Shown one piece after another: positions 4,840-19,491 of a DNA stretch of 33,519 bases. Where the stretch lies: NCBI GenBank assembly GCA_007117665.1, contig SKGD01000144.1, forward strand, positions 1 to 33,519, read 5' to 3'. The notes beneath the pieces were generated by a model, which saw nothing but the letters and a program-made list of their open reading frames with translations, was not told the origin of the DNA and did not search any database. Origin of the DNA: Alphaproteobacteria bacterium (GTDB lineage: Bacteria; Pseudomonadota; Alphaproteobacteria; Micavibrionales; Micavibrionaceae). Both the position numbers and the translations under genes were made by a program. Each line of letters begins with the position of its first letter. Position 1 is the first letter of the stretch.

Positions 4840-4871
4840 TATCACGGATATAAAACGGGTAAGAAAAAGTG

Positions 4872-5804
4872 ATGAAACTGATTGCCGGCAATTCCAACCG
4901 TCCTTTGGCCGAAGAAATTGCGAAATATCTCGGGGTTCCTCTTACCAAGGCCAGCATTCGCCGCTTTTCCGACATGGAGGTTTTCGCCGAAATTCTTGAA
5001 AATGTCCGTGGCGAAGATGTGTTCGTGATCCAGTCTACGTCCTATCCGGCCAATGATAATCTGATGGAGCTGCTCATTACGATTGACGCGCTGCGCCGTG
5101 GATCGGCGCGCCGGATTACGGCTGTGATTCCTTATTTTGGTTATGCGCGGCAGGATCGAAAAACCGGTGGCCGTACGCCGATCTCGGCCAAGCTGGTTGC
5201 TAATCTGATCACTGCAGCCGGGGTGGATCGCGTTCTGACGATGGAGCTTCATGCGGGGCAGATTCAGGGTTTTTTTGATATTCCGGTCGATAATTTGCAT
5301 GCCTCGCCGATTTTTGTGCCGGAGTTGGTCAAACGATTCAAAAAAGAGCCTTTGGTGATGGTGTCGCCGGATGTTGGCGGTGTGGTGCGGGCGCGGGCGC
5401 TGGCCAAAAAAGTGGATGCGGATCTTGCTATTATCGACAAACGCCGTGAAAAAGCAGGCGTTTCCGAAGTGATGCATGTGATCGGCGATGTCGAAGACAA
5501 AATCTGTATTATGGTGGATGATATTGTCGATTCAGGCGGCACGCTGTGTAATGCGGCGCAGGCTCTGAAAGATAAAGGCGCAAAAGCGGTGCATGCCTAT
5601 GTCGTGCATGGCGTGCTTTCCGGCGGGGCTGTGGCGCGCATTTCATCATCGGCGATCGAACGTCTGGTCATTGCCAACACCATCACGGCAACCGAATCCG
5701 CCAAGTCATCGGACGCGGTCGAAGAGTTGACCGTCGCGCCTTTGATCGGCGAGGCGATCAAGCGTATCAGCGAAGAGCGCTCTATTTCGGCATTGTTTCG
5801 CTAG
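4872..5804 (+). CDS. prs: Ribose-phosphate pyrophosphokinase
   Basis: Makes 5-phosphoribosyl-1-diphosphate from ribose 5-phosphate and ATP for purine, pyrimidine, histidine, tryptophan and NAD synthesis. The 310-residue product has the standard length. Key elements are the catalytic flexible loop around [13 protein letters not shown] (93-105), H127 in [11 protein letters not shown], and the PRPP-binding motif [10 protein letters not shown] (216-225). The ATG at 4872 matches the usual N-terminus [17 protein letters not shown]; an overlapping GTG at 4869 would add one residue. There is no strong Shine-Dalgarno sequence. The stop codon TAG (5802-5804) coincides with the end of a repeat also found at 19464-19491, so the last codons may have been set by that insertion. 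Confidence 0.97.
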
Positions 5805-5840
5805 GATCAGACCTCATTCATTTCATCCATTCTGCGCGCC
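5802..5840. repeat. Partial copy (one end) of the 19218-19491 repeat element
   Basis: Starting at the prs stop codon, about 39 bases match the reverse complement of the right end of the element at 19218-19491. TAGGATCA, then one mismatch (G for A), then ACCTCATTCATTTC, then four differing bases, then ATTCTGCGCG. The match extends past the terminal inverted repeat into sequence specific to the right end, so it is a relic of that end rather than a chance palindrome. No matching opposite end is visible before rplY. Confidence 0.7.
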
Positions 5841-18256: not shown

Positions 18257-19198
18257 ATGAAGCAGGGACAAATAATCGGGGTCATTATGGATCCTGTTAC
18301 ACAGATTAAACCAGCCAAGGACACAACGCTAGCCCTTATGCGGGCGGCACAAGAGCGCGGCCTTGGGCTATCCTATATGGAACAAGATGATATTTATATC
18401 GCGGATGGCAAGGTGCGGGCACGAACAAAAACGCTGACCCTTCAGGATCATCCCGATCAATGGTATGCCATGGATGACGCGCATGAAGATATTGAGATAA
18501 GCGCGCTTGATGCCGTTTTTATGCGCAAGGATCCGCCTGTGGACAAGCGTTTTATTCATTGTTGTTATATGTTGGCGCAAGCACAAAAAAACGGCGCACG
18601 TATTATTAACGACCCGCTGGCGCTGCTGCGCTACAACGAAAAACTTTATGCCACATGTTTCCCGGATTTTTGCCCACCTTATGTGGTGACGTCATCGCGT
18701 GACATATTGCGGGACTTTGCGGCGCTTCATAATGACATCATTATAAAACCCCTGGATGAAATGGGCGGCAGTGGCGTTTTCCTCGTGAAGAAGAATGATG
18801 TTAATTTGGATGTTATCTGGGAAATTCAGACAGCACGCGGAACATATCCCGTGATGGCGCAGAAATTTGTGCCTGATATAGCGCATGGCGATAAGCGCGT
18901 CATTATCATTAATGGCAAGCCTTACGGATATGCACTGGTGCGCTTGCCCGCAGAGGACAGTATCCGGGGGAATCTTGCCGCGGGAGGCAGCTATGACGTC
19001 AGGAAGCTGGATGAATCCGAGTATGCGCTGGCGGAAAAGGTCGGACAAAAAATTGTCGGAGACGGCGTCTTTCTCGCCGGGATTGATATTATCGGCGATT
19101 ATCTGATCGAAATTAATATTACCAGCCCCACCGGTTTAAGAGAATTGTCAGCCGCAACAGGTGACGATGTCGCCGGGCTGGTCATCGACGCGCTGTAA
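18257..19198 (+). CDS. gshB: Glutathione synthetase
   Basis: ATP-grasp enzyme adding glycine to gamma-glutamylcysteine. The 313-residue product has the expected length. Motifs are IGVIMDPVTQIKPAKDTTLA at the N-terminus, VFMRKDPPVD, INDPLALLRYNEKLYA, the ATP-grasp loop IIKPLDEMGGSGVFLV, DKRVIIINGKPYGYAL, GNLAAGGSYD and the metal-binding end LIEINITSPTGLREL. AAGG upstream of the ATG may serve as ribosome-binding site. The divergent partner gshA starts 19 bases away. A MITE-like element begins 20 bases after the stop. Confidence 0.96.
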   Translation: MKQGQIIGVIMDPVTQIKPAKDTTLALMRAAQERGLGLSYMEQDDIYIADGKVRARTKTLTLQDHPDQWYAMDDAHEDIEISALDAVFMRKDPPVDKRFIHCCYMLAQAQKNGARIINDPLALLRYNEKLYATCFPDFCPPYVVTSSRDILRDFAALHNDIIIKPLDEMGGSGVFLVKKNDVNLDVIWEIQTARGTYPVMAQKFVPDIAHGDKRVIIINGKPYGYALVRLPAEDSIRGNLAAGGSYDVRKLDESEYALAEKVGQKIVGDGVFLAGIDIIGDYLIEINITSPTGLRELSAATGDDVAGLVIDAL

Positions 19199-19217: not shown

Positions 19218-19491
19218 TAGGATCAAACCTCATTCATTTCGTAAAATGCTGTTGCCAATGATAAATGCAGATACCAGAAAAGCAAGCGAAAGCGTAGCGG
19301 TGCCTACGGTAAGCTTGCTTGACGCCGTAGATGCATTTATCATTGGTAACCCGTAAGGGCGAGGTAAATTTTTGTGTCTATTTGCTCAAAGTGTTTGACC
19401 ATAGCGACGGCTATGCTCTTCGCGCTTTTCCCAAATATCCACTAAAAATTTTCTCGCGCAGAATTTACGAAATGAATGAGGTTTGATCCTA
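19218..19491. repeat. MITE-like non-coding element with 28-bp terminal inverted repeats
   Basis: A 274-base element bounded by perfect 28-base inverted repeats (19218-19245 and 19464-19491), each ending in TAGGATCAAACC when read inwards from the end. A TA dinucleotide lies at each outer end, as expected if it inserted at TA like IS630/mariner-type elements (inference). Inside are two large imperfect hairpins. The first has arms 19251-19269 and 19332-19350 (18 of 19 pairs) with nested AAGCAAGC/GCTTGCTT and CGTAG/CTACG. The second has arms about 19359-19384 and 19432-19457, capped by CATAGC-GACG-GCTATG. No ORF of note is present. A related right end lies at 5802-5840. It might also act as a transcription end for gshB. 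Confidence 0.85.

Follow-up and report, generated by a model that had tools for sequence, protein, structure and literature searches.

A probable IS5-type MITE of Micavibrionaceae with an interior of two inverted copies of a conserved hairpin unit

The 33,519-nt stretch of DNA analysed here (the window) is contig 118 of a fragmented alphaproteobacterial assembly (1.77 Mb in 147 contigs) and carries a 274-bp element on its forward strand (19218–19491), delimited from sequence, inverted-repeat and BLAST evidence. The element starts 19 bp 3′ of the stop codon of an ATP-grasp-like ORF (ending at 19198) and is followed after 118 bp by the start of a histidine-kinase-like ORF (19610), both labels being our reading of the ORF sequences. 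The ORF list contains no ORF of 90 amino acids or more inside it. Its left terminal inverted repeat (19218–19245, forward strand; TAGGATCA...), the outer arm of a stem P1, is identical at 28/28 positions to the right one (19464–19491, reverse strand), and the repeat extends to 33 nt at 94%. TA flanks the element at both outer ends, which we read as the target duplication. The interior comprises hairpin 1 (19251–19350, reverse strand; arms 19251–19274 and 19327–19350), a small central hairpin, CCC-GTAA-GGG (19350–19359, no strand assigned), around the dyad centre of the element at 19354.5, and hairpin 2 (about 19359–19457, forward strand). Folded as DNA, the element reached −76.9 kcal/mol, whereas shuffled sequences averaged −30.1 (z −12.5; equalled by 0 of 200 shuffles), and RNA folds of the two strands gave z values of −14.2 and −15.0, a stability far above that of shuffles on both strands. 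Repeat and fold analysis thus bears out the perfect 28-bp ends, outer TA and two large hairpins described for this 274-bp element in an earlier sequence-only reading, and the element as observed is confirmed to be real.

The count of copies suggested by that reading returned many. BLAST gave 69 matches in the element's own genome, a large share of which hit an end alone or the other arm of a copy already counted. Core-bearing places number at most 26, in two families, since two copies that stop at contig ends could be parts of the same one; a covariance model of the core (R1) scored 23 such places. The element is thus neither alone in its genome nor, as detailed below, without relations in other genomes, the two findings together that would have spoken against it. 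Family A (L001–L016, sorted by hand like family B) includes the window copy, L001. Seven of its copies are complete (L001–L006 and L008; 274–276 bp) and six are cut by contig ends, while L011 and L012 lack much of hairpin 2 and L015 lacks hairpin 1. Family B (L017–L025 and L027) has different ends and a different hairpin 1, its right part being 80–86% identical to family A. Shorter derivatives (84, 48, 40 and 39 bp; sizes by eye) and one-ended fragments are also present, and derivatives without either hairpin persist. One such one-ended fragment, detected by BLAST, lies in the window itself (5802–5838, reverse strand), where its terminal TAG forms the stop codon of the prs-like ORF upstream (4869–5804); locus L159 looks similar. 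Being short, non-coding, bounded by terminal inverted repeats and present in many dispersed copies, the element is a MITE.

The ~61-nt structured unit of hairpin 2, which in that orientation has three stems with two internal loops between them, recurs inverted as hairpin 1, so that the element is two-fold symmetric about 19354.5. The relationship was traced with a second covariance model (R2), an apex model made from hairpin 2 only. In the window, R2 matched the apical unit inside hairpin 2 (19378–19438, forward strand) at 68.4 bits (E 4.5e-19), the model including L002, a 95% similar sister of the window copy. It also matched the apical unit inside hairpin 1 (19271–19330, reverse strand) at 28.8 bits (E 1.4e-6), even though it was built without any hairpin 1; the next-best match scored 11.5 bits. 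At E<0.001, 15 of 53 loci (several of them sister copies) gave a full-length match to hairpin 1 on the strand opposite to hairpin 2, with weaker ones in L100 (E 0.042) and L119 (E 0.26); among R2 matches to E 1, hairpin 1 was never full-length on the same strand. The hairpin 1 type of family B was not recognised by R2. Since hairpin 2 is almost self-complementary, R1 picks up its opposite strand as well; the claim for hairpin 1 is therefore based on R2, which gave no opposite-strand match to hairpin 2 at E≤1. By eye, the apex of hairpin 1 has the reverse orientation in L022 and L032 compared with sister elements, which suggests that hairpin tips flip. The earlier reading, made from the sequence alone, had no means of recognising the two hairpins as diverged inverted copies of one unit, or the wider conservation of this core than of the ends. 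Element length is narrowly distributed: of the 85 elements for which the script located both ends, 67 measure 272–278 bp (range 165–309).

In an alignment of 51 units (A3; six of 57 non-redundant cores omitted, namely four deletion derivatives and two divergent ones), 169 cells contained a pair-keeping double change against 48.6 ± 6.5 after shuffling, and the covariation score was 0.476 against 0.160 shuffled and at most 0.160 in slid-partner controls, the rows being related, so that these counts and the conservation values are not counts of independent events. Mean identity was 81% over the 13 internal-loop columns and 71% over the 40 paired ones. Loop columns 51, 52, 81 and 90 stood at 90–100%, and of the ten columns at or above 90% four were loop and six paired, the latter mostly in the apical stem, with paired columns 58 and 59 matching the best loop columns. 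Covariation and conserved unpaired residues together indicate that a folded single strand is under selection. A weak hint as to which strand comes from single stem mismatches, where G.T against A.C (as read, in related rows) was 29:16 in hairpin 1, 12:25 in hairpin 2 and 15:27 in P1; read on its complement, hairpin 2 gives 25:12, so that in either hairpin the strand complementary to the unit shows more G.T than A.C and is modestly favoured. On this complement the internal loops are rich in purines and place GA across from GA, an arrangement known from sheared tandem pairs. One internal loop was considered as a possible kink-turn, a reading that was dropped because the strands did not fit the consensus of that motif.

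BLAST matches to the element occurred in 11 of 58 genomes searched (own included), and the better matches in relatives span the interior and not the ends; some weak matches (L037, L039) do not look like the element. R1, which was built from the central hairpin and hairpin 2 of 18 sequences, matched 24 of 142 order-level genomes, in five families, and 14 of 385 genomes sampled from the class, 12 of which lie outside the order; both counts include the own genome. R2 had matches in 22 of 398 genomes sampled across the phylum, nine of them in other classes. When 17 of the phylum-level R2 loci were inspected, 11 had a scripted inverted repeat round the unit (some weak) and six did not, and several of the ends were quite different in sequence. 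The core is thus more widely conserved than the ends. R2 units at L247–L262, which come from other classes or from distant families within the phylum, lie within unrelated inverted ends, e.g. TAAGGAACCTCTGAAC.. and TATCAGCCCACGG.., which suggests that the structured unit sits in other MITE types too. Judged by eye, L250 (G609) is shorter and has only one unit, flanked by ends TAGGGCGTGTCCTCATAAAA.

A pattern scan of genome contigs returned eight stretches, four of which were confirmed by R1, in Micavibrio sp. DHS20C02 (contig BQJE01000002, which belongs to the order) and in two MAGs labelled Alphaproteobacteria; the four without an R1 match were taken as chance. Viral contigs gave no match to a 21-nt unit pattern and plasmids none to one element (L182) in a distant-mode search. 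Rfam gave 0 matches in the window at gathering score, and two sub-threshold Rfam matches (9 loci, E≤1) were taken as chance. Literature searches, covering mainly open-access papers, returned no published description of the element family. We judge the element to be an IS5-type MITE, a known kind, and its conserved inverted twin structured core to be new.

The two ends of an element resemble each other far more than those of different elements: positions 7–24 agreed at 0.929 within and 0.412 between elements in a set of 77, which omits eight of the 85 (all order-level) for lengths outside 268–282 bp (165, 184, 184, 189, 260, 287, 307 and 309 bp). A terminal inverted repeat was found by script, in searches spanning about 145–350 bp only, for 66 of 87 cores (of the 21 without, eight were contig-cut and 13 uncut) and for 19 of 22 class-search loci. 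Family A arms likewise differed by 0.43 mismatches within a copy and by 2 between copies. The earlier reading took the perfect ends to suggest recent activity or selection; such agreement would be expected from recent transposition, from selection and also from homogenisation of the arms.

These ends point to the IS5 family. Proteins at L048, L050, L055, L059 and L203 match the IS5-family models NF033580, PF13340 or PF01609, and DUF4096 (PF13340) matches were present in 14 of 61 genomes of the family and in three of 14 element-bearing genomes. We read IS ends for ten DUF4096 loci of relatives and for G324 and G151, giving a set of 26 ends (ten of the 25 DUF4096 loci examined, the two others and two fragments); the remaining DUF4096 loci were contig-cut or lacked a clear repeat, and four more ISs brought the set to 34. 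Of 96 distinct MITE ends, 49 matched one of the 26 IS ends at ≥12/16 positions (1.5% of shuffles preserving the first six bases) and 18 at ≥14/16 (0.02%); with 34 ends the figures were 49 against 1.2% and 18 against 0.02%. The other 47 MITE ends had no partner at ≥12/16 among the IS ends. Matches were mostly between genomes: among six element-bearing genomes with IS ends read, IS ends matched the genome's own elements only in G151, where IS and MITEs share the beginning TAGAACCAGTCA, and did not match them in G013, G021, G023, G324 and the window's own genome (IS fragments TAGATAGTGTAG..). No PF13340 match was found in the own assembly, and the one PF01609 match there, barely above threshold, is what is left of the C-terminal part of a decayed IS5-family transposase (L047, about 727–1090, contig 147; 48 bits over 50 amino acids against NF033580, cut-off 110). 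About 150 bp downstream of this remnant lies TAGGCGCTAGACTCATAG, alike at 13/18 positions to the family B end and, by eye, at 15/18 to the right end of the L050 IS. The remnant is possibly the relic of a helper; an intact helper was not found in the own assembly.

Insertion sites agree with such a source. TA was present at both ends of 38 of 65 distinct order-level insertions and missing at one or both ends in 27; in the 38, a Y preceded the left TA 36 times and an R followed the right one 36 times (Y-TA-R), YTAR being the target rule of the IS5 family. Empty sites were sought by joining the flanks of 12 G123 copies with an added TA and searching its genus. For three of the six copies examined (10 alignments), sister species had element-free sites with a single TA (L109/L214, L112/L217 and L123/L220), and the TA at these three belongs to the subject sequence itself. 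L123/L224 showed one base of the TA, L124/L212 had AG at the site, and five alignments for L108 and L110 contained gaps or unclear junctions. The sequence-only reading had proposed a search for empty sites with a single TA; these three, with the many copies, uphold the description of the element as structured, non-autonomous, MITE-like and inserted at TA. No empty site was obtained for the window copy: in G001 and G002 the orthologue has 53–58% protein identity, and the next window gene was not found beside it.

We consider it likely that the element is a non-autonomous IS5-type MITE (of the subgroup that we take to be DUF4096 / IS427-like) mobilised in trans, with a core of twin conserved hairpins selected as a folded strand. 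An IS5-family IS would supply the transposase, which would recognise the outer ~16–18 bp of the ends and insert the element at Y-TA-R, duplicating the TA; we infer this trans-mobilisation from the end matches, the target statistics and the empty sites. The interior consists of two inverted copies of one hairpin unit round the central mini-hairpin, whereby each strand, in either orientation, carries one canonical functional-strand copy and one complement, a rule broken by the hairpin 1 flips of L022 and L032. We likewise infer selection on the folded single strand, and think it most likely, at about even odds, that the core works as RNA upon host read-through transcription, independently of orientation, for example by having the transcript shielded or processed so that insertions would be tolerated. 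In different lineages the same core stands behind different IS5-type ends; the core has thus outlived changes of ends and presumably of helper too. MITE interiors are usually seen as leftovers; an interior more widely conserved than its ends would imply a function for the folded strand and an exchange of ends between helpers.

The simplest alternative is an ordinary MITE in which hairpins and covariation are functionless by-products of palindrome correction, through template switching in quasi-palindromes. Arms are indeed more alike within a copy than between copies, so that arm homogenisation may occur, and hairpin-less derivatives exist. Correction would, however, erase internal loops, when the loop columns are instead the more conserved on average (81% against 71%), and length is nearly constant in genomes of many families while the ends change; we regard this explanation as quite improbable. 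Less unlikely, though still on the doubtful side, is that the core works as DNA, with a protein, either a host factor or a transposase, binding its single-stranded or cruciform hairpins while the DNA is replicated or transposed. Two-fold symmetry would suit a two-ended DNA reaction, the units lie about 105–110 bp apart centre to centre in two-unit loci (worked out by hand), and the hairpin flips in L022 and L032 would matter less. Against this, we know of no requirement for internal hairpins in IS5-family DDE transposases, and at one paired position of a stem 29 of 51 rows have G-U or U-G and one row has no pair, which is easier for RNA. TA at both ends had also suggested an IS630/Tc1-mariner MITE, and an IS630-like transposase with the same ends was what the sequence-only reading proposed to look for. 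A domain search found no PF13358 (IS630 DDE_3) in the own genome, the ends match IS5-family ISs instead and the target is YTAR; an IS630 helper was accordingly rejected, and we give this origin almost no credence.

A further alternative is that the unit is a CGTC-tagged REP, a dimer of which has been captured by IS5-type ends to form the element. According to the passages on these repeats in Di Nocera (2013; PMC3733652), CGTC-tagged REPs are found mostly in Alphaproteobacteria, Micavibrio included, are mostly paired head to head, in some cases as dimers inside palindromes, and are reported without a dedicated transposase, a broad transposase spectrum being one possible mobiliser. The element resembles them, as described in those passages, in its alphaproteobacterial hosts including Micavibrio, its inverted pairs and a CGTC tag beside the stem in many genomes: by eye, 12 of 14 rows from outside the order (alignment A4) have CGTC or TGTC 5′ of the middle stem. 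We find this resemblance suggestive. The same passages give REPs of 20–40 bp with a CGTC (TGTC/CCTC) tag, 8–9-bp stems, 4–5-nt loops and a CCA-like tail (PMC3733652), whereas the unit is ~61 nt long with internal loops, IS5-type ends and nearly fixed spacing; its 7-bp middle stem runs through mismatches into a further stem, its tail (TCC) is offset, and most rows of the order lack the tag. The unit thus departs from the REP definition in stem, loop and tail, and we think it unlikely to be a REP in that sense. Returning to the trans-mobilised MITE with a selected core, we offer as no better than tentative the wider proposal of a portable ~61-nt inverted-twin module, with one functional copy on every strand, in IS5-type, and perhaps other, ends across Alphaproteobacteria and some other Pseudomonadota, serving selfish DNA as a functional RNA or ssDNA device. 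If true, CGTC-REP-like repeats, which lack their own transposase, may move on the same principle; the element would offer a concrete answer to how CGTC-type palindromic repeats spread without a dedicated one, a question left open in the passages of PMC3733652.

Among known systems, IS5-family (IS427-like, DUF4096) ISs and the MITEs derived from them share with the element the end TAGGGTC..., the TA ends, the YTAR target and, for the MITEs, the size; the element differs from them in having a conserved structured module behind differing ends. The RIME elements of rhizobia, reportedly described by Osteras in 1995, are said to be alphaproteobacterial, intergenic and built of large palindromes, a likeness to the element by description only. 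ERIC, nemis/Correia, RUP and QMITE are also non-coding, bounded by terminal inverted repeats, rich in stable hairpins and present in many copies (PMC10969869), whereas a conserved inverted twin unit with interchangeable ends is particular to our element among the structured MITEs in the passages of that review. In the passages concerned, this review and a paper on Bradyrhizobium repeats (PMC5082802) describe other elements.

The contigs of the own assembly break at ISs, and contig ends carry pieces of another IS5-type-looking IS with ends TAGATAGTGTAGTCACGAG or TAGATAGCGTAGTCACGAG (L006, 1–104; L017, about 1733–1852; L020, 1–118; and L164, after a fragment at 639–664). These pieces abut MITE ends in L006 and L164, and in L020 the piece sits within hairpin 1 of a family B copy. 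G029 contains 14 DUF4096 matches, many at contig ends, and perhaps its IS5-type IS has recently expanded. In L164, a CGTC/TGTC-REP-like repeat (TGTCATCCCCGCC..GGGATCCA) of the own genome lies at about 570–605, near a one-ended MITE fragment.
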